Assembly: GCF_001953175.1 (NCBI RefSeq)
Contig: NZ_CP018258.1
Span: forward strand, 1,020,210 to 1,084,209
Origin: Dehalogenimonas formicexedens
Lineage (GTDB): Bacteria > Chloroflexota > Dehalococcoidia > Dehalococcoidales > Dehalococcoidaceae
Reading direction: 5' to 3'
DNA: 64,000 bases
Shown in pieces: positions 47,658 to 62,612 of this stretch; position 1 is the stretch's first letter, and the number at the start of each line of letters is the position of its first letter. The position numbers and the translations under genes are program-made. The notes beneath the pieces are model-generated. The model had not been told where the DNA came from. It did not search any database and saw only the letters and a program-made list of their open reading frames with translations.

Positions 47658-47667
47658 GTAGTTCATT

Positions 47668-47712
47668 TGGTAGCGGGGATAGGATTCGAACCTATGACCT
47701 TCGGGTTATGAG
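47668..47712 (-). other. tRNA-Met 3' fragment, attachment site of the island
   Basis: Read on the minus strand, this is the 3' half of an elongator-type tRNA-Met: CTCATAA anticodon loop (CAT), stem half CCCGA, variable loop, T arm ATAGG-TTCGAAT-CCTAT, acceptor half CCCCGCT, A and encoded CCA. The 5' half is missing: upstream of the loop the sequence no longer pairs. A remnant of this shape marks one end of an element integrated in the tRNA gene. Confidence 0.88.
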
Positions 47713-49609: not shown

Positions 49610-50425
49610 TTAAGTAGTTATTGCAGCTATCTTGGCCTCTGGCGCCGGTGGACGGTAGCCGAGTGAGCTGTGGGGCCGGATCTGATTGTAGTCCCTCCTC
49701 CACTGCTCAATCAATACCTTCGCCTCAGTTAACGTACTGAATATTTCCCGGTCCAGGAGTTCATCACTGAGCTTGCCATTGAAGGACTCAATGTAGCCGT
49801 TTTCCCATGGGCTCCCTGGCTCGATGAATAGCGTTTTAACTCCAATCCTGGCCAGCCATTTGCGTATCTGCCTGGCGGTGAATTCGGTTCCATTGTCGGA
49901 GCGGATGTACTCAGGTATTCCCCGGAGCACAAAGAGTTGGAAAAGCTGGTCTATGACATCATGAGAAGGGATACTGCGGGCCACCAGCAGCGCCGGGCAC
50001 TCCCTAGTGAACTCATCGATAATGGTCAGTATCCTGAAAGCCTTGCCGTTCTCTGTCCTACGTTTAACAAAGTCGTAGCTCCAAACGTGGTCCTTGTGTT
50101 CCGGCCTCAAACGGATGCACGAGTTGTCGTTAAGCCATAGTCTTTTACGCCTTGGTTGCTTCTGGGGCACCTTTAAACCTTCCTGCCGCCATATTCTTTC
50201 CACCCTCTTGTGATTTACCATCCAGCCTTCCGATTTGAGCATAGCCGTAATACGCCGGTAGCCATACCGGCCAAACTTGGTGGCCAGGGAAATGATATCG
50301 TCCGTCAGACTCTCCTCTTCGGCACTTGAGTTGTGACTCCGCCGTTGAGTAGATCTCGTCTGACCTAATACCATACATGCCCGCCTCTGGGAGATATGAA
50401 GTGCATCCGATATTCGGATAATCAC
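49610..50425 (-). CDS. IS3-family transposase OrfB (DDE integrase)
   Basis: A 271-residue catalytic part of the IS3-type transposase. HTH_21-like segment (FGRYGYRRITAMLKSEGW) precedes the rve integrase core: first Asp in WSYDFV, second in IRSDNGTEF, and the Glu in NGYIESFNGKLSDELL, so all three catalytic acids are kept. The frame continues upstream past the GTG start (SPSRRRKVIIRI), which fits the programmed -1 frameshift by which IS3 elements make an OrfAB fusion. It appears intact. Confidence 0.93.
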   Translation of the reverse strand: MIIRISDALHISQRRACMVLGQTRSTQRRSHNSSAEEESLTDDIISLATKFGRYGYRRITAMLKSEGWMVNHKRVERIWRQEGLKVPQKQPRRKRLWLNDNSCIRLRPEHKDHVWSYDFVKRRTENGKAFRILTIIDEFTRECPALLVARSIPSHDVIDQLFQLFVLRGIPEYIRSDNGTEFTARQIRKWLARIGVKTLFIEPGSPWENGYIESFNGKLSDELLDREIFSTLTEAKVLIEQWRRDYNQIRPHSSLGYRPPAPEAKIAAITT

Positions 50426-50445
50426 CTTCCTTCTCCTGGACGGGC

Positions 50446-50724
50446 TTAGGAGTTTCCCCGGGCGGCTTCGGCCAGGATGGCCTTATCGAGAGATAGATCA
50501 GCCACCAGGCGCTTCAGGCGTGCGTTCTCTTGTTCGAGTTCCTTAAGTCGTTTTGCCTGCTCGATGCGCATGCCACCGAACTCCTGGCGCCAGCGATAAT
50601 AGGTGCAGTCGCTGACTCCGATCTTCTTGAGCATTACGGAGAGGGTAGTACCTTGGCTGATAAGGACCTCAGCCTCTCGGAGCTTGTTGATGATCTGCTC
50701 TGGCGTGAAAGATTTCCTGGGCAT
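50446..50724 (-). CDS. IS3-family OrfA helix-turn-helix protein
   Basis: A 92-residue OrfA with a Tnp-1 helix-turn-helix (KSFTPEQIINKLREAEVL, then IGVSDCTYYRWRQEFGG) and a leucine zipper (KRLKELEQENARLKRLVADL). It binds the IS ends. GGGGAAGCAG precedes its ATG. The layout before orfB is that of the IS407/IS51-like groups. Confidence 0.93.
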   Translation of the reverse strand: MPRKSFTPEQIINKLREAEVLISQGTTLSVMLKKIGVSDCTYYRWRQEFGGMRIEQAKRLKELEQENARLKRLVADLSLDKAILAEAARGNS

Positions 50725-50940: not shown

Positions 50941-53900
50941 ATGCCTACAGAGATTCGTACGATACTTAGAGACTATGCCAATGCCGTTCGCGAGAAGTTG
51001 ACATCAGGATTGGGCGGTCAACCGGAAGACCAGCTGAAGAATCCCACGGAGAATCTAATTCGGGCTTTTGGTGAGTTGCTTAACCATATTGCCATTGCCG
51101 TTACCGAAGTCAATACTCCTGAAATAGGTCGGCCGGATATGGCGGTTGCAATAGATAGTCTCCTGGTAGGCCACATAGAACTCAAGCAGCCAGGTATTGG
51201 AGTGAATCCATCGGTCTTCACCGGACACAACTTGGACCAATGGAAAAAGTTCAAACAGCTTCCTAATTTGGTCTATTCTGATGGAAATAATTGGGCACTA
51301 TTTCGTAGCGGACAGCGAGTAGGAGAAATAATCCACCTCGGTGATATTGCAGCGAGAGGCTCGTTGGGAATCAGACCTGATGCAATAGATGCTTTTCAAT
51401 CTCTATTAACACAATACCTGTCGTGGCAACCGATTACACCTAATTCCCCCAGGGCACTCGCTGTATTATTGGCACCCCTTTGTCGTTTTCTTAGAGATGA
51501 CGTTTTGGGAGCATTGCTGAATGAAGATTCAGCATTGTCTCAATTAAGAACAGACTGGAGTACAACTCTGTTTCCCGACGCGGGCGAACGAGAATTTGCT
51601 GATGCTTATGCTCAGACATTGACGTATGCCTTACTTCTAGCCCGATTCGATGGAGCGGGTGACCTTCGTCCGAGTAGGGCAGCCGAAACGCTCAGTCATA
51701 ATCATCAACTACTTGGACAAGTTCTTAATGTTTTAACTGACCCTCAAGCTTATCAGGAAATCGGTACGGCGGTTGACGTTCTGGTGAGGGTTATAGGTGC
51801 CGTCGCCCCAAACTTACTTGTAGAACAGGACCCCGACCCATGGTTATATTTTTACGAGGACTTTTTGGCAGAGTATGACCCAGAATTGCGTGAGGAACGC
51901 GGTGTGTACTATACGCCGGTGCAGGTGGTCCAATGCCAAACCAGACTTGTAGCTGAACTTCTTAGGGAAAGATTTGGCAAGCCCCTCGCTTACGCTGATA
52001 CAGATGTTGTGCTCCTGGACCCGGCCACCGGTACAGGTACATATCCTCTTGCAGCAATAACAGAAGGGGTGGAATGTGTTCGTGAAAGATTTGGTGCCGG
52101 GGCTGTACCACATCGGGCTACAATGCTTGCGAGAAACATTCACGCATTTGAACTCCTCGTTGGTCCTTATGCAGTCGCCCACTTGAGAATAACTCAGAAA
52201 CTTCAAGAATCAGGTGCCGTACTCCCGGATGATGGAATTCATGTTTACCTCACTGATACCTTGGAATCACCTGAACCGGCACCCTCAGGGCGCCTTCCAT
52301 TATCGTTACGACCTCTGGTGGATGAACATCGGCGTGCTGGCAGGGTGAAAAGAGAGACCCGTGTCCTCGTTTGCATGGGTAATCCTCCATATTCTCGACA
52401 ATCGTTTGAAGCGAGCGAAGGAACTGATGACCGAGAAGCCAGACTTGAACGTTTATTAGGAGATTTCATTCGTCTCGCTCGCGGCAGAACGATGTTTAGT
52501 CATATAGCATCTTTATATAACTCTTATGTCTATTTCTGGCGTTGGGCTTTATGGAAGGTGTTCGATACGACTGACGGTCCCGGTATAGTCTCTTTTATTA
52601 CCTCATCAAGTTACTTGAAAGGACCGGGGTTCCTTGGAATGCGGGAGGTGATGCGAAAAACATTCGATGACCTCTGGATAATTGACCTTGAAGGCGGTTC
52701 TTCAGGGGCACGGAGAACAGAAAATGTATTTTCGATTCAAACCCCGGTTGCAATCGCGATTGGCGTTCGGAACGCCAGGCCAAATCCTGGTTCACCAGCA
52801 AATGTACACTATGTGAAAATTACTGGCCGTAGGGAAGACAAACTAACCACACTGGACACGATTCATTCGTTTGCTGATTTGCAGTGGACAGAGTGTTCAA
52901 ATGAGTGGACAGCGTCATTTATTCCGGAGGGCCAAAGCGACTTCTTTAAGTGGCCATTGGTAACTGACCTTTTCCCATGGCAGCACCCAGGAGTGAAAGT
53001 AGGGAGGACTTGGCCCATTTCTGTCACAAACGACACCGGAGTAAGACGTTGGCAGCGTCTAGTTTCTAGCTCTTTAAGTGAAAGGAGCGAATTGTTTGCT
53101 GACAGGAGTTTCGGACGCGGAACCTCTACGCGACCATCAATTGGCCTTCTACCACCTCCAGCTTCAACGCATTCGATTCGTGACCTTAATCCTAATAGCG
53201 CAGCTCCTCCAATAATCCGTTATGGTCATCGGTCTTTCGATAGAAAATGGATTATTGCCGATGGCAGGCTTTTTCGTACCCCAAGCCAACCTCTTTGGTT
53301 TACACAATCACCCAAACAAATATATATGACAAGTTTATTAACCGGGGTATTGGGGCATGGTCCAGCCGCGGTGGTAAGTGCCCTAATTCCTGACCTCCAT
53401 TTTTTCCGAGGTTCTTTTGGGGGTAAAGATGTCATTCCACTTTGGCGCGACCCCTCGGGAACCGAACCGAATATTACCCACGGATTCATTCAGTACCTTG
53501 AACGAATATATGGGACGCACATCCAACCAGAAGATATTTTTGCCTACACTTATTCCATCCTTGCAAATTCAGACTTCACTCAACATTTTGCAGAAGACCT
53601 GGCAACTTCTGCTGCACGCATACCAATCACTACCGATGTGACGCTATTTCGTAACGGTGTCGATTTAGGTCGGCGATTGATTTGGCTACATACCTATGGC
53701 GAACGCCTTGTGCCTATTGGGGAGAGAATTCATCGGGTTCCCTCAGGACGTGCCCGTGCCCTGCGGCCTATTTCATCTACGCCGGATGGTTACCCGAATG
53801 ACTTTCATTGGGATGAAGCTACCGAGACTTTGCATGTCGGGGATGGAACCTTTGCTCCTGTCACGCGAGAAGTTTGGGAATATGAAGTGTCGGGGTTGCG

Positions 53901-54198
53901 GCCTGTTCGGTCATGGTTAGGTTACAGAAAGAGAGAACCCTCTGGCCGAACCTCATCGCCATTAGATGAAATTCACCCTTTGGAATGGCCCGCAGAATTT
54001 AATGAAGAACTACTAGAATTGTTGTGGGTTCTTGAACAAACGGTAAATATGTCACCGAGTCTATCCGCATTCCTTGATGCAGTGCTACAGAGCGAAATAA
54101 TTCAAGCAACCGAACTTCCTTTTCCAACGGAGGAAGAACGAAGGCCGCCGGATTCAAGAGGGAACGATAGAGAACCGACCGAACAGTCCTCGTTCTAA
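50941..54198 (+). CDS. Single-chain nuclease-methylase restriction enzyme (type ISP/IIG-like)
   Basis: A 1,085-residue enzyme. The N-terminal nuclease domain shows PD-(D/E)XK residues D66 (GRPDMAVA), E80 and K82 (HIELKQ). A helical region follows to about residue 330. The adenine-N6 methylase domain has motif I DPATGTGTY (about 360) and motif IV GNPPYS (about 480). The remaining 550 residues hold the target-recognition part, with the terminus typical of the ISP C-terminal domain. There is no helicase motif, which classical type ISP enzymes (about 1,500 residues) have. It methylates and cuts DNA from one polypeptide. Next gene encodes an Mrr-like companion. Confidence 0.8.
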   Translation: MPTEIRTILRDYANAVREKLTSGLGGQPEDQLKNPTENLIRAFGELLNHIAIAVTEVNTPEIGRPDMAVAIDSLLVGHIELKQPGIGVNPSVFTGHNLDQWKKFKQLPNLVYSDGNNWALFRSGQRVGEIIHLGDIAARGSLGIRPDAIDAFQSLLTQYLSWQPITPNSPRALAVLLAPLCRFLRDDVLGALLNEDSALSQLRTDWSTTLFPDAGEREFADAYAQTLTYALLLARFDGAGDLRPSRAAETLSHNHQLLGQVLNVLTDPQAYQEIGTAVDVLVRVIGAVAPNLLVEQDPDPWLYFYEDFLAEYDPELREERGVYYTPVQVVQCQTRLVAELLRERFGKPLAYADTDVVLLDPATGTGTYPLAAITEGVECVRERFGAGAVPHRATMLARNIHAFELLVGPYAVAHLRITQKLQESGAVLPDDGIHVYLTDTLESPEPAPSGRLPLSLRPLVDEHRRAGRVKRETRVLVCMGNPPYSRQSFEASEGTDDREARLERLLGDFIRLARGRTMFSHIASLYNSYVYFWRWALWKVFDTTDGPGIVSFITSSSYLKGPGFLGMREVMRKTFDDLWIIDLEGGSSGARRTENVFSIQTPVAIAIGVRNARPNPGSPANVHYVKITGRREDKLTTLDTIHSFADLQWTECSNEWTASFIPEGQSDFFKWPLVTDLFPWQHPGVKVGRTWPISVTNDTGVRRWQRLVSSSLSERSELFADRSFGRGTSTRPSIGLLPPPASTHSIRDLNPNSAAPPIIRYGHRSFDRKWIIADGRLFRTPSQPLWFTQSPKQIYMTSLLTGVLGHGPAAVVSALIPDLHFFRGSFGGKDVIPLWRDPSGTEPNITHGFIQYLERIYGTHIQPEDIFAYTYSILANSDFTQHFAEDLATSAARIPITTDVTLFRNGVDLGRRLIWLHTYGERLVPIGERIHRVPSGRARALRPISSTPDGYPNDFHWDEATETLHVGDGTFAPVTREVWEYEVSGLRPVRSWLGYRKREPSGRTSSPLDEIHPLEWPAEFNEELLELLWVLEQTVNMSPSLSAFLDAVLQSEIIQATELPFPTEEERRPPDSRGNDREPTEQSSF

Positions 54199-54239: not shown

Positions 54240-54914
54240 ATGACGAGCCGATTAAAAGTGTCAGAGAAAACTCTTGAACTCAATATTAGTGCAGAAATCC
54301 TGCAAATGGTTCGCAGTTGGCCTGGTTGTGCCTGTGCTTTTTGGGTTGGTATGAAACAGGACCAAGAGGCGAAGAATGGTATCGACGAACTAATTCAAAA
54401 TGTCCCGAGGGGGTTTCACCTGGCACTCCAGTTTAAGGCTCCGAAAGCCACTCCACCCAACCAAATTCCGTACCGATATACGATAAATGATAGGCAGAAC
54501 GGCAACCTTCTCAGATTAGCAATAAACCGGCCAAATGCTGTCTATTATGTTTTCCCCATGTACAATACGTTCCAGAAGTTAAGGAATAATTCGCCCAATC
54601 TTCTTCAGGACACCTGGGCACTACAAGTTGCCGCAACCAAAAGCCTCCAGAAAGCTGGAAATTCCCAAGGTAGGCACGAAGTATATGCTTCGACCAACCC
54701 TCCGGGGGTTATTATATATTCAAACCCTTTCCCGGCTGATTTATCGCGTTTCTCAACAATACACGGGAACGTTTTTGAATCCCCAAGCGAGTACTTGCTC
54801 AGTCATACCGCCCTTAAAGATTGGCTTACTGAGCTGGTCAGCGGAAACCGGGTGAACCGACAGTCAGTTGGTCAACTGTTAAGGGGATTTTCTACCGTTT
54901 GCGTGCCAATTTAG
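54240..54914 (+). CDS. Putative Mrr-like nuclease next to restriction enzyme
   Basis: A 224-residue protein. After an opening TLELNISAEIL, a pattern that resembles the QxK variant of PD-(D/E)XK nucleases can be drawn: E43 (DQEAKNG), D49 (GIDELI), Q64 and K66 (ALQFKAP). The rest, with YRYTINDRQNGNLLRLA and a late HTALKDWLTELV, is not recognised. GGAGGGTGA directly before the ATG is a strong ribosome binding site. It follows the restriction enzyme by 41 bases, so the two are likely co-expressed. A nuclease activity is inferred from the pattern only. Confidence 0.55.
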   Translation: MTSRLKVSEKTLELNISAEILQMVRSWPGCACAFWVGMKQDQEAKNGIDELIQNVPRGFHLALQFKAPKATPPNQIPYRYTINDRQNGNLLRLAINRPNAVYYVFPMYNTFQKLRNNSPNLLQDTWALQVAATKSLQKAGNSQGRHEVYASTNPPGVIIYSNPFPADLSRFSTIHGNVFESPSEYLLSHTALKDWLTELVSGNRVNRQSVGQLLRGFSTVCVPI

Positions 54915-55026: not shown

Positions 55027-58000
55027 TTACGTTATGTGCATTCGTTGCCAGGCGTCAATCACCTTGAACACTTGTGGCAGAGCTAAAGGTATCAGAGTAA
55101 ACTGCCGGTCTAGATTTTTCTTTAGTCGAGGGATAATAACCCCAGGTTTCCTTGTGGACGTTAAAGTATCCAAAAGCGACAAAATCAATTGGTCTCGCTG
55201 GTGCGTTAGCATAGCTTGCTTGAATAACCCGTATATGAACGTTGTTCCGACTATCAAAGCTGAGTTCTCTTCCGAATACGCACCACCTAGCATTTTAAGA
55301 ACCGAAGTGAAAGGTGTTTTTGGTGTCCAACCCGAGCGCTTCGCTGCTTCGATTAATATGTGAGCATCTATGCTAAGGTTGCGATAGTTCAGGCTTGCCA
55401 ATTGTATGACATAGTCATTATATCTATTTCGGTCCAGCGTTCCGTCTGTCAAACATTTAATCAATAGTGCCTGTGTCCACACACCCAGGGTCTTATATTC
55501 AATTCTTCCCAAAGAACGTAAACGTTCGTCATCTGTGAACAATACCGACCCCGATTCCGAAGCAATAAGCAAAGTTTCTGTGGAGGAAGCACCTATCAAT
55601 TTTGCGAATTGTCGACGTTTTTCTCTTTTAACTGTCAATGCAGCTTTGCAGGGAATAATCTCGCAACGTTCCCCAATCCATTTGACAATACCTTCAAGGT
55701 ATTCAAGATTACGCTTGATGTCTTCAGCGCTGATATCCTGACTTATGAATTTGTCTCCCTCTTTGCCTATTACTAGAAATCCTTTTGCCTGTATTCCTTT
55801 ACGTTCGTTAATAACCTCAGAAAGTAGGTCAACAGTTGACTGAGCTAGACCAATTTTACCGAATCTTGTGACAATAAAATCTGCGGCACCGATGGCGTGG
55901 ATGGTCATTATCGATACAACATCCGCAATTAACTTCATTTCAGGGGTTATAGCGGAATTAGCGAGGCTTAGTTCTTCATAACTGCCAACGGAGGCAATGA
56001 TTCCAGGCTCAGGATTGCTTGTCAATCTATTCCAAACCTCTAGGGTGTTTCTACCAGCTAAATTTGCGAAAGCTCCGATAGTCACCTGCCCCGCTTTATA
56101 TAGCTTTTCAACCAACAGACCTCTTTCATGCTGCTGGCCGATACTATCTAATACTGCCTGAAATCCCTCAGGGGTTGCTTCGTCTTTTTGTGGGGTATCA
56201 ATTTTGACTTTCCACACACCCGTTGCATCCGGAAACCAAGTCTCAAAAGAAGCCAAACTCTCTTGAAACGCGTAAACGTACTTGCTCTTGATTTCGATAA
56301 TTTTGCCGAATATCTTCGAGTATGGGCTATCAACTAAAATAACCGAATCACCCACAGACTTCCCAAGCATATTCTTGATTAGTTGGTGGTTGAGATTTAA
56401 CTCACTCCGGTTTGCATCAGCGTCCTCGCGGTCTACTATTAGGTACCATTTTTTATGACCATCTTCTTCGATGCAGACCGCAGTATCAACCCCTACAACA
56501 GATATCTTTAGCCAGTCACCCTCGTCCTTTTCCCTTTGTAAGAACATGCCCATGTATTTCTGATGCGCCATTGGGGCATTAAAAAATGTCCTTCTTAATT
56601 CGTAAGAAACAGAAAGAGCATGGTACCCCCTATTGCGAGCCGCCAACAAGGCAGCATACTGGAGACCATGTTCCAATGTAACGGTTTTCAAATTGAATTC
56701 AGAATCTAAATACTTGTCGAGTTTCTCAAAATCATTCGACCTTAAATAGGTGACCGCCAGACGTAACTGGACGATTGAATTGGCTGGGAATTTTTCAAGG
56801 TATTCCTCACATATCGCTTTCGCGTTTGGTAGGTCTCCTATTTCTTCATAAATCGCTGATTCCATTTCTGCGGTATACTCGGTAACACCAAATTTCCGAT
56901 GCAACGTTTGACAGATATTTAGTGCTTTGCCGAGCATCCCAGCCCGGTAGTATGCGTTCAAGAGACGTCGGGAAAGTGGGGTATTCAATGACGTATCAAC
57001 AACACGTTCGTATAACAAAACAGCTTCTTCAAACTCTTGAATTTCATACAGTCCATCGGCTACTTCGAGTATTTGCGCCGGCGGAGTGGCCGCATTTATC
57101 CGGCCTTTCGCGTTCATCAATATGGAGATGGCATCACCTTTTTTGTTAGAGGCACTCTCGATTGCGGCGGAGTCAACTAAATATGCTATTTTGGAGGGAT
57201 TCTGGGCTAAGAGAATGGAAGACACTTCTCCCGCATTTTTTACGTCTCTTTGGTCAATATACAGTCGAAGAAGCAGTCTGTACCCTTCCTCTTTGGTGAC
57301 CTCATCAGAATCTCTCGCGATGAGCTTATTAATAACATCAACAGCCTGAGCGATTTCGCCTTCTCCGCGTAGAATTATTCCCAATAAAAGAGAAGCCTCG
57401 GGCAATTCGTCGGTCCCTACTAATTCTTTTAGGAGAGTTATGGCTTTCCGGTTTTCATTGTTTTCATGAAGAAGCATTGCTAAAACTTTTTTGCACGAAT
57501 TGTCAGAAGGAACGATTTCAATAGCAAGCTTCACATCGGCAATTGCCCCGTCAATGTCTCCTATTTGCGCTTTACCAAGACCTCTGTTGACAAGCCAGTC
57601 GGTACGACAATGTCTAATACTCGTTGTTGCAACCTTATCCCAAGCTGAGGTGAGTAATTGAATTGCCCGTTGTATCTCGACCCGTTTCGATTCGTTGACC
57701 TGAACTCCGGAAAATGACACTTGGTCGTCTAATATTGTTTTAATTATAATGGTGCCGAGTCCAGCTTTCAGGTCAGGCGAATCACTCGAATCATTGTTGA
57801 CTGCGATTTCAATCCACTTTTTCGACTCCCAAATATCGCCTTTCTTGTAAAATAGGTAACCAATGGCATTGGCGATTTCTGAAACTTTCCGCAAGGGTTC
57901 TGGTACCCTTTTTAACGTTTCTTCGGGATGTTCGGCATCTGGAGCACATTGAATTAGAAGTGAATGTGCAATTGTGTTGGATGGGTTCAGTTCCAACGCT

Positions 58001-58932
58001 CTTTGTAAGAGAGGCAACGCCTGTTCCGGTGAGTCCAACAAAATCTGCCCAAGCGCAGCGTTAGTGAGAGCTTTCTCATCGGTCGGATTGTATTGCAATG
58101 CTTCGATAAGTAATCTAGCACTTTCCTGACGTTCGTTAAGCATTCCTTTCGCCGAACCAATATTGGTGAGAATTCGATATTTCACAATCGGGGGAGAATT
58201 TGCCCAAATCCTGTCTTTCAACGTAGAGAGATAACTGATAGCTTCGACTGCGCCAAATGCCTTCAACAAAGCCCTTGAATGGTCTATCTCGGCCTGGTAT
58301 TCCGGAACCAGTATTGCTGATGAAATATCCACATATGAAATGCCGCTAATTAATTCGGTTTTGGGCTGTGTGAATGCCTTTGATTTAATTTCGCCCGTAT
58401 CTTCCAAAACTCTCTGAAGGTCTTCTTTGACTTCGTTAATCGCCTCTCTAAGGGGTGATTCTGGACAAAAGCCACTATAATATTTCTCAACGATATCGGG
58501 GTACTCGTCTAATTTCTCTAAGATATCGTCCCAGCTCCATACACGGAACGGAAAAAGACCTTGTAAAAGATGTTTATCGGTAATGTTTCGGCCTAGTTGT
58601 TGGATTTTTGCATCTCTTTTGCCTGACGTCGCAATCGCAAAAGATTTTAGAGAAGGCTTAAACGATTTCGCCTTCTCTACTTCACTTTCAACTTCTTCTT
58701 CGGTTAGAGATTTCTCAGCGTAGTTGTCTTTTCCTTTGCATTGAACCCCAGCCCAAGATGTTCCCTGGTTTGGTCTGCCGAAAATGTCAACACCATGTTG
58801 TGGTTGTCCCTGCCTACCGTTCTTTTGAGTATCAGGGTCTTTCCAAATCGCTCTCCAAAGGTCACAACAAAGTGATTCAAAATCCTGCCAGTTCGCAGGA
58901 GGGGGAACCTGAAAGCTGGAAAGTCTGTCCAT
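55027..58932 (-). CDS. REase-TPR-GreAB-C-PIN conflict protein
   Basis: A 1,301-residue protein built from parts seen in biological-conflict systems. The N-terminus is a restriction-endonuclease-like domain (FESLCCDLW at about 18-26, GVDIFG with D49, GVQCKGK with Q64 and K66). Residues about 190-800 are TPR-type helical repeats. At about 845-930 lies a GreA/GreB C-terminal-like domain (MLGKSVGDSVILVDSP). The C-terminal third has a PIN-like nuclease domain (TLLIASESGSVLFTDDERL, near 1130, then LGVWTQALL). This is the architecture described as TPR-GreAB-C-PIN. It is transcribed away from the DUF5677-like operon. The nucleases presumably act on nucleic acid when infection is sensed. Confidence 0.75.
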   Translation of the reverse strand: MDRLSSFQVPPPANWQDFESLCCDLWRAIWKDPDTQKNGRQGQPQHGVDIFGRPNQGTSWAGVQCKGKDNYAEKSLTEEEVESEVEKAKSFKPSLKSFAIATSGKRDAKIQQLGRNITDKHLLQGLFPFRVWSWDDILEKLDEYPDIVEKYYSGFCPESPLREAINEVKEDLQRVLEDTGEIKSKAFTQPKTELISGISYVDISSAILVPEYQAEIDHSRALLKAFGAVEAISYLSTLKDRIWANSPPIVKYRILTNIGSAKGMLNERQESARLLIEALQYNPTDEKALTNAALGQILLDSPEQALPLLQRALELNPSNTIAHSLLIQCAPDAEHPEETLKRVPEPLRKVSEIANAIGYLFYKKGDIWESKKWIEIAVNNDSSDSPDLKAGLGTIIIKTILDDQVSFSGVQVNESKRVEIQRAIQLLTSAWDKVATTSIRHCRTDWLVNRGLGKAQIGDIDGAIADVKLAIEIVPSDNSCKKVLAMLLHENNENRKAITLLKELVGTDELPEASLLLGIILRGEGEIAQAVDVINKLIARDSDEVTKEEGYRLLLRLYIDQRDVKNAGEVSSILLAQNPSKIAYLVDSAAIESASNKKGDAISILMNAKGRINAATPPAQILEVADGLYEIQEFEEAVLLYERVVDTSLNTPLSRRLLNAYYRAGMLGKALNICQTLHRKFGVTEYTAEMESAIYEEIGDLPNAKAICEEYLEKFPANSIVQLRLAVTYLRSNDFEKLDKYLDSEFNLKTVTLEHGLQYAALLAARNRGYHALSVSYELRRTFFNAPMAHQKYMGMFLQREKDEGDWLKISVVGVDTAVCIEEDGHKKWYLIVDREDADANRSELNLNHQLIKNMLGKSVGDSVILVDSPYSKIFGKIIEIKSKYVYAFQESLASFETWFPDATGVWKVKIDTPQKDEATPEGFQAVLDSIGQQHERGLLVEKLYKAGQVTIGAFANLAGRNTLEVWNRLTSNPEPGIIASVGSYEELSLANSAITPEMKLIADVVSIMTIHAIGAADFIVTRFGKIGLAQSTVDLLSEVINERKGIQAKGFLVIGKEGDKFISQDISAEDIKRNLEYLEGIVKWIGERCEIIPCKAALTVKREKRRQFAKLIGASSTETLLIASESGSVLFTDDERLRSLGRIEYKTLGVWTQALLIKCLTDGTLDRNRYNDYVIQLASLNYRNLSIDAHILIEAAKRSGWTPKTPFTSVLKMLGGAYSEENSALIVGTTFIYGLFKQAMLTHQRDQLILSLLDTLTSTRKPGVIIPRLKKNLDRQFTLIPLALPQVFKVIDAWQRMHIT

Positions 58933-59205
58933 GTAGCTCCGCTCCGAAATGCCCGTTTGCGAGTCCCAGTCTGAGTTGGAGGGGCATCATCCCCCTAAAG
59001 CCGGTATTGATGGTTGTTTCGCGCAATTCTACCACTAGACAGCAGTGCCTTAAAGGATTATCCTTTTTTGAAAATCGGTTTGTGTCACGGAACCCCGATT
59101 GAATAGTGCTGATGTACACAATGAGTAGTTGCAGTCTCACGAATATATTGGCCGGGTCGAGTTGAACCCAATCAAGAAGTTTGGATTTGGATAAAGTAAA
59201 ACGCC

Positions 59206-59943
59206 ATGCCGACAGTCCATGACTTAATATATCTAAATCGAGACTTCCGTAAATTGCTTGAAACTGGATTGGAACGAGCCAGCCCATTTCCTCCTCATTG
59301 TTGGCCGTTGTTGTATTTGGCTGTGAAAATAGCTCGACACCAAGAAGCTCTCGAAGTCCTCGCTTTGAGGGATTTTGGTAGCGAGGGTGGAATAATCCTC
59401 AGAAGTATGTTTGAAGCGGCAGCCAACATACTCTGGATATCCAAAGACCCGGCACCGCGACTCACCAGATTCGTAGCCTTTCTCGCGTTTGACTCACAGA
59501 AATATCGGGATGCCTCACAAAAATGGGACGCCATGTCTCATCTGAGCGCCAAATACCGGCAGCGAATCGAGCAAGAGTTTGAACAGCTTAAAAAAGAAGC
59601 AAAACAAATCGGAGACGAATTCGGCTTCAAGTCTTATGAACACTGGTCGGGTCTGAGCCTAAAAACCATGTGTAAAGAGATTGGATGGCTAGAACGATAC
59701 GATTTTTTATACAAAACCTACTCAGACGTCAGTCACTCGAATATTATCTCGTCCAATAAATATCTGAAATTCAGCGAATCAGGTGTCCGGCTTAACCGTG
59801 AACCGCAAGGTGATGAATGCGCGATGTGCCTGTGCGAGGCATATTATTATCTTTGGGCATCCTTCAGCTTCCTCGATATATTCCTGAACCTTGGGATGGA
59901 ATCGATGCTCGAACATGCATACAGTAGAATACCAAAGACGTAG
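59206..59943 (+). CDS. DUF5677-like all-helical protein
   Basis: A 245-residue protein, largely alpha-helical. It has the pattern of DUF5677 proteins: VLALRDFGSEGGIILRSMFEAAANILWI, a long charged helix, and YKTYSDVSHSNIISS, which places a conserved Ser/His near the C-terminus, then a helical end. The arrangement of R and H recalls HEPN-type folds, but the RxxxxH ribonuclease motif is not clear. ATG at 59206 has a weak ribosome binding site. It is the first gene of a three-gene run with the DUF429 and GHKL-nuclease genes. Confidence 0.65.
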   Translation: MPTVHDLIYLNRDFRKLLETGLERASPFPPHCWPLLYLAVKIARHQEALEVLALRDFGSEGGIILRSMFEAAANILWISKDPAPRLTRFVAFLAFDSQKYRDASQKWDAMSHLSAKYRQRIEQEFEQLKKEAKQIGDEFGFKSYEHWSGLSLKTMCKEIGWLERYDFLYKTYSDVSHSNIISSNKYLKFSESGVRLNREPQGDECAMCLCEAYYYLWASFSFLDIFLNLGMESMLEHAYSRIPKT

Positions 59944-59956
59944 AAGAAAATAGCAC

Positions 59957-60700
59957 ATGAACAGTTCGGTTGGAGTCGATGTCAGTAAAGGCCGTTGGTT
60001 GGCAGTTCAACTTTTCGACGATGCATCTTGGGACGTCGACCTGTTCCCTACCTTCACAGAACTCTGGAAAAATTACCAAGAAGCGAAATGGATTCTTGTT
60101 GATATCCCCATCGGTTTAATCGATGAAGGAGCGCAGCGGGCTTGTGATACGATGGCTCGCTCTCTCCTGGGGGACCGTCAATTCTCGGTGTTTCAGGTCC
60201 CTTGTAGGGCAGCTTTGATGGCCGACTCCTGGGGGGAGGCTTGTGAAATCAACCGTAGTAAAACCGGGCGGCGAATGTCCAAACAAACTTATGCCATTAT
60301 GCCGAAAATTCGAGAAGTCGATGAGTTCCTTCAAGCCACCGTTGAGGCTCGAAAAAAGATTTTGGAAATCCATCCCGAGCTGTGCTTCTGGGCATTAAAC
60401 AATTCCAAACCCATGGAACACAACAAGAAAACGGAGCCTGGATTCAAAGAACGCTTAAATATTTTAAAGAAACACCAACCTAAAGTCGATGACATTCTTA
60501 CCTGCGCCCTAGCTCAGCCCAACTGGAAAATCGCAAAAGATGATATCGTCGATGCTCTTGTTGGCGCTATGGTGGGTCTCCTTACTCAAGGACAACTCAC
60601 AACTTTGCCCGACGACCCAACTCTTGATTCCACGGGCCTTGCCATGCAAATGGTGATTCCTGCAAAGACCTATATGCGAGGAGAAGCAAATGAACAATGA
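59957..60700 (+). CDS. DUF429 protein, RNase H-like fold
   Basis: A 247-residue DUF429 protein. The opening GVDVSKGRWLAVQL with Asp near residue 8, ILVDIPIGL as the second acidic strand, EIHPELCFWALN and the late KDDIVDALVGAMVG reproduce the RNase H/RuvC-like core with acidic residues on strands one and four. Such proteins are predicted nucleases of unknown function. It starts 13 bases after the upstream gene and overlaps the GHKL-nuclease gene by 11 bases, so all three are translated from one mRNA. No membrane segment or signal peptide is present. Confidence 0.78.
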   Translation: MNSSVGVDVSKGRWLAVQLFDDASWDVDLFPTFTELWKNYQEAKWILVDIPIGLIDEGAQRACDTMARSLLGDRQFSVFQVPCRAALMADSWGEACEINRSKTGRRMSKQTYAIMPKIREVDEFLQATVEARKKILEIHPELCFWALNNSKPMEHNKKTEPGFKERLNILKKHQPKVDDILTCALAQPNWKIAKDDIVDALVGAMVGLLTQGQLTTLPDDPTLDSTGLAMQMVIPAKTYMRGEANEQ

Positions 60701-62612
60701 CACGAATCTTACCCTTACGTTTGATGGCTCTTTTTTGGAAGACCACGCTCGTCTCATCATGACGGATGCAAAGACGGCTTTGGTTGAGTTAATTGCAAAT
60801 TGCTGGGATGCGGGTGCAAACCGAATTGATATCGTTTGGCCTGACCCTGCGCCGGATAATCTTAAAATTAAAGACGATGGGATAGGGATGAGCCGTTCAG
60901 AATTTGAACGACGTTGGCTGAGGTTTAACTACGACAGGAAAAGAGAACAGGGAGAACAAGTCATATTTCCCGTGGGAAATATAGCTAGCCATAGGAGAGC
61001 TTTCGGTAGGAATGGCAAAGGCCGTTTTAGCATGTTTTGTTTTTCAAATGAATATTTTATCGAAACCTGGAAAGACGGAAAATCGAATACGTTTTGCGTG
61101 AAGCGAAATAACGGTTTATCCGCTCTGCCTTTTAATATCACTCATGTCAAAGAAATTGATAAACCCGGACATGGTACAGAAATATCTGGAGAACTCGTCA
61201 GGAACCACCTCTCGATTGACACAATCCGTGATTTGATTGGGTCTAAGTTCATTACCGACCCGACTTTCAATATTTATGTCAATGAAGAATTGGTAAAACT
61301 TACAGACCTTGAACATTTATTTGACAGGCAGACAATATTCGTCGCGGATGTTGGAGAAATTATAATCTCATGCATTGATAGCCATAAAGTCGGAAGAACG
61401 AGCAAACAACATGGAGTCGCTTGGTGGGTACAAAAAAGGCTCGTGGGTGAACCTTCGTGGAGAGGTTTTGATGATGATGCATATCTGGACGCTCGCTCCA
61501 CTGAAGCCAAACGTTATACTTTCGTTGTGGAAGCAGACATTTTAATCGATGATGTAAGAGAGGATTGGGGCGAATTTAAGGATACAGAAAGGTTTAGGCA
61601 AGCTAACCGCGCTGTTAGGAATGCAGTTCTTAAAAAACTTCGCGAACTTATGGTTGATGAGCACAAATCTGCCAAAATGGCCGCTGTTCGCGAAAACAGA
61701 AGGGAAATGCAAAGCCTTTCACCCGATTCAAGACTTCATGTAGGTCAATTCATTGACACTGTTCAAGCAAGAATCCCCACTATCAACCAAAAGGTGCTTT
61801 CCACCACTGTAGAAATCCTTTCAAAATTGGAACAATCTCGTTCAAAGTACGCATTGCTGGACCAATTAATGAAACTGAATCCAGATGATATCGACAATTT
61901 AAATGACATTCTTTCAAATTGGTCAGTCCAAGAAGCTAGGATTGTGCTAAATGAGCTCCAAAACAGACTAAAGTTAATTGAATCTTTAACTGGGTTGGTC
62001 GATAACCCAGCCGCCGACGAGCTACATCAAATTCATCCCCTGTTTAGTCAAGGCCTTTGGATTTTTGGACCAGAATATGAGTCCATTCAATTCATTTCAA
62101 ATGTCACGTTACTTCGAGTGATTCAAGATTTATTCCAAGATAATCAAACAGTTAAGTTGGATAATCCGAAGAGAAGGCCAGATTTCGTTATATTACCCAA
62201 TTCCACGATTGGCGTTTATGCGAGCGACGATTTCAATCGAAAGGGCGAAGTCAATGGTTTTGCCAAAGTATTAATTATCGAGCTAAAAAAAGGTGGTTCT
62301 GAAATTACTGTAAAGGAAAGGCGCCAAGCTGAAGATTACGTATTAGAATTGAGGAAAAGTGGAAAAATTCAACCAACTACTGAATTAGTCGCGGTGGTAT
62401 TGGGTAGTAGAGTGTCCGGAGATTGTACTGAAGTCAATTGGCCAGAGCAAAATACCCGAATCACCCCATATTCATATAGCGTCATTTTGAGGTTCGCTCA
62501 TGCAAGAACATTTAACTTACTTGAGAAAATAAGGAAAGCGAAAGATATCGAACTCTCCGACCCAGAAATTGACCGTGTTTTACAGGTGGAAACGCAAAGC
62601 CAATTTGTGTGA
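60690..62612 (+). CDS. GHKL ATPase fused to PD-(D/E)XK nuclease
   Basis: A 640-residue protein. The N-terminal GHKL (Hsp90/MutL/MORC-type) ATPase domain shows the N box ELIANCWDAGA (N37), KDDGIGM (G1 box, about 61-67), FGRNGKGRFSMF (about 106-117) and HGTEISG. A transducer-like beta region follows, then helices with coiled-coil character (about 310-440). The C-terminal domain has PD-(D/E)XK residues RRPD (495-498) and ELK (531-533), followed by a Gln in ERRQAEDY, as in DUF4263/Shedu-like nucleases. An ATP-gated nuclease is thus predicted. It is the last gene of the three-gene operon. Confidence 0.78.
   Translation: MNNDTNLTLTFDGSFLEDHARLIMTDAKTALVELIANCWDAGANRIDIVWPDPAPDNLKIKDDGIGMSRSEFERRWLRFNYDRKREQGEQVIFPVGNIASHRRAFGRNGKGRFSMFCFSNEYFIETWKDGKSNTFCVKRNNGLSALPFNITHVKEIDKPGHGTEISGELVRNHLSIDTIRDLIGSKFITDPTFNIYVNEELVKLTDLEHLFDRQTIFVADVGEIIISCIDSHKVGRTSKQHGVAWWVQKRLVGEPSWRGFDDDAYLDARSTEAKRYTFVVEADILIDDVREDWGEFKDTERFRQANRAVRNAVLKKLRELMVDEHKSAKMAAVRENRREMQSLSPDSRLHVGQFIDTVQARIPTINQKVLSTTVEILSKLEQSRSKYALLDQLMKLNPDDIDNLNDILSNWSVQEARIVLNELQNRLKLIESLTGLVDNPAADELHQIHPLFSQGLWIFGPEYESIQFISNVTLLRVIQDLFQDNQTVKLDNPKRRPDFVILPNSTIGVYASDDFNRKGEVNGFAKVLIIELKKGGSEITVKERRQAEDYVLELRKSGKIQPTTELVAVVLGSRVSGDCTEVNWPEQNTRITPYSYSVILRFAHARTFNLLEKIRKAKDIELSDPEIDRVLQVETQSQFV

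Follow-up and report, generated by a model that had tools for sequence, protein, structure and literature searches.

A stand-alone REase-TPR-GreA/B-C-PIN protein carried by an integrated element of Dehalogenimonas formicexedens

We analysed a stretch of 64,000 nucleotides of the Dehalogenimonas formicexedens genome (contig NZ_CP018258.1, positions 1,020,210 to 1,084,209; hereafter the window), in which a single gene encodes an Mrr-like nuclease domain (REase), a TPR array, a GreA/GreB C-terminal-like domain (GreA/B-C) and a PIN-like domain in one chain. The open reading frame, at 55027-58932 on the minus strand, comprises 1301 codons from an ATG and has no interruption. It is not a chance reading frame, because homologues that closely match it in length and domain order occur in Chloroflexota, cyanobacteria, Poribacteria and on proteobacterial plasmids. 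The features of the locus are listed in Table 1.

Table 1. Features of the REase-TPR-GreA/B-C-PIN gene and of its carrier, in window coordinates
Feature	Position	Strand	Evidence
REase-TPR-GreA/B-C-PIN protein, 1301 aa	55027..58932	-	Uninterrupted open reading frame; PF20698 E=6.2e-30; full-length homologues
Mrr-like PD-(D/E)XK nuclease domain, residues 1-160	58453..58932	-	Alignment of 15 homologues; model and fold search; phrog_8991 E=4e-24
TPR array, residues ~226-770	56623..58257	-	TPR Pfam matches; per-domain identity
GreA/GreB C-terminal-like domain, residues ~805-890	56263..56520	-	GreB profile match 5.6e-6; model VIA Z 9-10
PIN-like domain, residues ~1000-1150	55483..55935	-	PF20698; alignment counts; Foldseek VapC matches
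C-terminal helical region, residues 1151-1301	55030..55482	-	Conserved W-x-Q motif and helices in alignment and model
attL of ~23-kb element: 46-bp copy of tRNA-Met 3' part	47667..47712	.	Identical repeat, integrase, intact tRNA-Met, empty site

Domain architecture and class

A preliminary description of this DNA had proposed the same four-part composition, and Pfam, a family profile and structural models bore it out. The segment limits it gave were roughly right, except that GreA/B-C lies slightly earlier and the PIN fold spans residues ~1000-1150, followed by another helical region at the C-terminus. The TPR matches in Pfam, many in number, fell within residues ~254-737. No PADLOC model exists for a protein of this kind. 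Two AlphaFold models, one of the N-terminal part and one of the core, were each built from a four-row alignment of the window protein and loci from the homologue searches, and were compared with the PDB; their mean predicted local distance difference test (pLDDT) values were 58 and 57, respectively.

On the single sequence, the Pfam models Mrr_cat and Mrr_cat_2 matched the N-terminal domain weakly (E ~0.03; Mrr_cat at residues 14-103). The Mrr_cat score of the window protein was 14.4 bits compared with a cut-off of 21, and homologue L040 scored 21.5. In an alignment of 15 homologues the motif around the active site reads GRxGQxQxGVD...GIQCK, where D49 and Q64 are present in all 15 N-terminal domains, while K66 is retained in 13 and replaced by Arg in two. 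This D-(x)n-[E/Q]xK site lies on an alpha-beta core with the predicted order alpha-beta-beta-beta-alpha-beta-alpha-beta. D-QxK is the active site expected for Mrr-like nucleases, and judging from the alignment the catalytic residues are intact. Among solved structures, the REase model came closest to the effector nuclease of Avs4 (8dgf; VIA Z 10.4 over 141 residues), followed by AF1548 (1y88; Z 10.3) and by AspBHI and MspJI (both Z 9.3). A profile of the domain found no match at E<=1 among the sequences of solved structures.

The GreA_GreB Pfam match was also weak on the single sequence (E=0.016, residues 812-882). A profile of 16 homologous cores, when compared with solved structures, matched GreB (2p4v) at E=5.6e-6 and GreA (1grj) at 4e-4. 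The model of this domain was nearest to GreA and to Gfh1 bound to RNA polymerase (VIA Z 9-10 over ~75 residues; model residues 36-115, i.e., protein residues ~805-884). By both the Pfam scan and the model, the protein lacks the coiled coil with which Gre factors begin. In the alignment of the 16 divergent cores, no stretch was conserved enough for scanning.

The PIN domain was identified by PF20698 (PIN-TPR-GreABC) at residues 1002-1143, with 104.7 bits against a curated cut-off of 27.8. The PIN part of the core model matched VapC proteins (Foldseek, probability up to 0.96) in a region of low model confidence. Among 25 homologous PIN domains, the motif I Asp (D1004) is invariant. At motif IV (D1135) 24 domains have Asp and the remaining one has Glu; at motif III (column 1119) 17 carry Asp and two carry Glu, the window protein having E1119. 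At motif II (column 1036) 15 of the 25 domains have Glu; the window protein (L1036) and three others have Leu, relatives with this Leu including L037 and L015, and a well-conserved Asp (D1035) stands one position before this column. The motif II column was chosen by visual comparison with a VapC annotated in L026; an hhalign comparison of the PIN alignment with two VapC proteins gave a poor two-sequence alignment and was uninformative. As to the catalytic acids, whose loss from either nuclease would have spoken against the preliminary description, the REase domain has all its catalytic residues and the PIN domain retains acids in three of four motifs, with Leu and a neighboring Asp at motif II. 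Since some PIN nucleases function with three acids (SMG6), PIN activity of the window protein is considered uncertain rather than excluded.

A TPR-GreA/B-C-PIN conflict system was predicted computationally by Kaur, Iyer, Burroughs and Aravind (eLife 2021;10:e70394; PMC8195603). According to these authors, its N-terminus is one of 13 interchangeable effectors, among which REase is named, and the system is mostly a stand-alone gene with few conserved neighbors. The window protein matched PF20698 above the cut-off, has a TPR array before GreA/B-C, carries an effector of a listed type and is encoded by a stand-alone gene. All features of the class that can be tested in sequence were therefore found, and on these grounds we assign the window protein to it. 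The preliminary description was right that this design is known from computation as a conflict system and has seen little study at the bench.

Relatives, effector exchange and the mobile carrier

The gene is present in a single copy in its genome (2,092,789 bp) and was not found in seven sister species. Across 400 Chloroflexota genomes, the family was above the cut-off in 10. The closest relative, on the metagenome-assembled Chloroflexota contig L037, is 67% identical over the core. The L037 gene is broken by one in-frame stop (L037:4786-4788) on a low-coverage contig, which may reflect either a pseudogene or a sequencing error.

The N-termini of the homologues varied. The Ktedonosporobacter homologue, 34% identical over its full length, has the REase domain, as do homologues on many alphaproteobacterial plasmids; plasmid-borne homologues of Sinorhizobium and Bosea have all the domains of the window protein. 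A PNP_UDP_1 domain takes its place in the Nostoc homologue, and those of Poribacteria and several Chloroflexota have other N-termini. When presence of the REase was mapped on a tree built from 26 cores, five changes were required, at least three of which are forced by well-supported branches. These results show that the N-terminal effector has been exchanged between relatives. The idea that the N-terminal nuclease is a new fusion had to be abandoned: besides its place in the published list of effectors, REase is carried by 16 of the 26 collected homologues.

In an alphaproteobacterial plasmid clade (L016, L018 and L020, ~5.7-7.0 kb), a helix-turn-helix gene (DnaD_N-like) and an Abi_2/HEPN-like gene precede the homologue, the latter ending ~10 bp before it in all three. 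The two genes are possibly a clade-specific partner pair, confined to this one alphaproteobacterial clade.

The REase domain also occurs without the core. It matched phrog_8991 (E=4e-24) and was found alone in a 302-aa protein of Erwinia pyri. In searches of viral contigs, neither the full protein nor the core had a relative, and the REase domain was found by itself in a single phage-like contig. Judging from these matches, the REase effector module circulates on its own in phages. In the viral contig L046, a 386-aa gene (L046:3400-4560) lies amid P2-like tail genes, and its N-terminal part shares 56% identity with the REase domain (phrog_8991). When identities were calculated per domain, REase was the highest in four of four comparisons (72, 47, 37 and 76%), and the linker before the array and the middle TPRs were the lowest. 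This pattern would fit a constrained catalytic effector combined with a diversifying recognition region.

The gene lies on an integrated element. The second copy of the 46-bp repeat listed in Table 1 was located ~22.9 kb away, beyond the window (G000:1090801-1090846), together with the intact tRNA-Met, and a tyrosine integrase is encoded at that end (L036:5558-6733). In the sister genome G004 the site is uninterrupted, and both flanks meet at the same 50 bp. The gene is thus carried on a mobile element and was probably acquired horizontally. Other cargo of the element comprises a type IIG/ISP restriction-modification enzyme, a DUF5677-DUF429 pair, a GHKL ATPase and a DnaB-like protein. The type IIG/ISP-like enzyme (50941-54198) matched REase_MTase_IIG of PADLOC with 1124 bits and Type_ISP_C at E=2e-77, and the 224-aa gene next to it (54240-54914) had no family match. 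The GHKL ATPase protein (60690-62612) is distant kin of the BbrUII/HgiDII restriction enzymes, below the curated cut-off, and is possibly a separate restriction or defense gene. An IS3-family transposase (49610-50724) has copies of 100% identity both at G000:1887514-1888725 and in the sister genome G007, which points to recent transposition.

The divergent region between the large gene and the DUF5677-DUF429 two-gene cassette (59206-60700) had been put at 274 bp and proposed to co-regulate both sides. The gap measures 273 bp (58933-59205); the proposed co-regulation found no support. A second copy of the cassette and of ~180 bp upstream of it lies at G000:764992-766624; it is 88% identical, is not accompanied by the REase-TPR-GreA/B-C-PIN gene and adjoins a different large gene, a type IIG-like enzyme. 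The similarity between the two copies breaks inside the divergent gap, at 59023, and the two sides of the gap therefore appear to be separate units. The cassette seems to be a mobile unit in its own right, placed divergently beside large defense genes. In the neighborhoods of 24 homologues, none of the window neighbors recurs except an IS3 transposase, and the genes that do recur are other defense genes and recombinases; a search there for a conserved partner, as had been suggested, found none. A promoter scan of the divergent region gave sites no commoner than chance. Because the cassette occurs elsewhere in the genome without this gene, co-regulation seems unlikely.

Proposed mechanism and alternatives

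The published proposal for the class is that GreA/B-C engages the beta-prime coiled coil of RNA polymerase, and that PIN cuts the extruded transcript, with the N-terminal effector in reserve to bring about cell death (PMC8195603). Defense function and action on RNA polymerase are predictions for the whole family as well as for the window protein. The reading that we favor, with about even confidence, is that of a stand-alone, horizontally acquired anti-invader protein of this class. GreA/B-C would dock on the beta-prime coiled coil at the secondary channel of RNA polymerase, or would sense a phage-modified polymerase. The fast-evolving TPR array would recognize a signal derived from the invader or from host damage and keep the effector idle until then. 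Once triggered, the REase would cut DNA, probably without sequence specificity, at the expense of the cell, and the PIN domain, if active, would cut RNA at the polymerase. Since REase is the most conserved domain and PIN motif II is altered, REase is taken as the probable main effector in the window protein, and the GreA/B-C-PIN end may serve in recognition and regulation or in a first line of transcript cleavage.

Several points weigh against this reading. A search of the literature available to us found no experimental study of any member of the class, and binding to RNA polymerase is deduced from the fold alone. The structural models are of modest confidence, with most of the PIN part below a pLDDT of 60, and PIN motif II has Leu instead of Glu in the window protein. 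The homologue sample came partly from a full-length search, which favors REase-bearing relatives.

Of the alternatives, the one that fared best, though we think it a good deal less probable, is a mechanism resembling that of Avs4 but lacking an NTPase: the TPR array would bind a conserved phage protein directly, clustering would activate the REase, and GreA/B-C and PIN would serve only for dimerization or regulation. The REase model resembles the Avs4 effector nuclease more than any other solved structure, the effector precedes a helical-repeat sensor as in Avs proteins, diversification is fastest in the middle TPRs, and the window protein, like some of its relatives, has lost PIN motif II. 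However, the STAND NTPase is absent, and GreA/B-C and PIN are kept with differing effectors while the Asp residues of motifs I and IV are almost invariant; this retention of PIN acids across effectors favors a catalytic or metal-binding role.

The published scheme itself, in which GreA/B-C would make a phage-hijacked polymerase extrude its RNA, PIN would cut this as a first line and REase would remain a suicide back-up, seems unlikely for the window protein. It can draw on the GreA/B-C fold and on a PIN fold with three of four acid motifs, but the window protein lacks the coiled coil with which Gre factors reach into the active site of the polymerase, and its motif II Glu is replaced by Leu. 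Slightly less likely still is a guard-type sensor of RNA polymerase, in which disturbed docking of GreA/B-C, for example by a phage protein occupying or reshaping the secondary channel, would be relayed via the TPR array and fire the N-terminal DNase, the PIN domain having changed in this clade from a nuclease to a structural or RNA-binding part. If true, it would mean an immune sensor of transcription hijacking without any NTPase.

That the protein is a type IV (modification-dependent) restriction enzyme merely with extra domains is very improbable: the REase fold is near MspJI and AspBHI, which cut modified DNA, but the domain scan detected no modification-reading domain such as SRA, and the effector slot is swapped for non-nuclease domains, e.g., PNP in Nostoc. 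A larger system comprising this gene and the divergent DUF5677-DUF429-ATPase genes, with co-regulation across the gap, has adjacency on one element in its favor and can practically be dismissed, given that these genes stand near none of the 24 homologues (0/24), that the second cassette copy, with its upstream DNA, stands beside a different gene, and that promoter-like sites did not exceed chance.

The class was predicted in 2021, and the window protein offers, in a single gene, an apparently intact DNase active site combined with a natural variant of the PIN active site. It is thus suited to clean experiments on which of the two nucleases is important and on whether the thing sensed is RNA polymerase.

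Comparison with known systems

Avs4 (AVAST type 4) and the window protein share an N-terminal Mrr-like effector nuclease followed by a helical-repeat sensor region, and this likeness suggests that the TPR array may bind a phage protein directly. The window protein has GreA/B-C and PIN in lieu of the STAND NTPase of Avs4, and scans with Pfam, NCBIfam and PADLOC detected no NTPase in it. Therefore, it is not a member of the Avs group, although a similar way of working would still be compatible.

With GreA, GreB and Gfh1 the shared part is the C-terminal FKBP-like domain (Z 9-10). Because the N-terminal coiled coil of these factors is missing, stimulation of the polymerase's own cleavage, as by Gre factors, is not expected. 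MspJI and AspBHI share the PD-(D/E)XK catalytic fold and differ by a modification-reading domain, of which the domain scan found none in the window protein.

VapC-type PIN toxins have in common with the window protein the PIN fold and the Asp residues of motifs I and IV, but motif II is altered in the latter. Assignment to VapBC toxin-antitoxin systems was rejected: the chain is 1301 aa long, no antitoxin-like gene adjoins it, and none is conserved near the homologues.

The closest correspondence is with the TPR-GreA/B-C-PIN system, with which the window protein shares the constant TPR, GreA/B-C and PIN core, an REase-type effector and a stand-alone gene without a conserved partner. It differs by Leu in PIN motif II and by its carrier integrated at tRNA-Met, and is otherwise of the same kind. 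The window gene is a further member of the class, to which it adds its mobile carrier and the evolutionary measurements, rather than a new kind of system.

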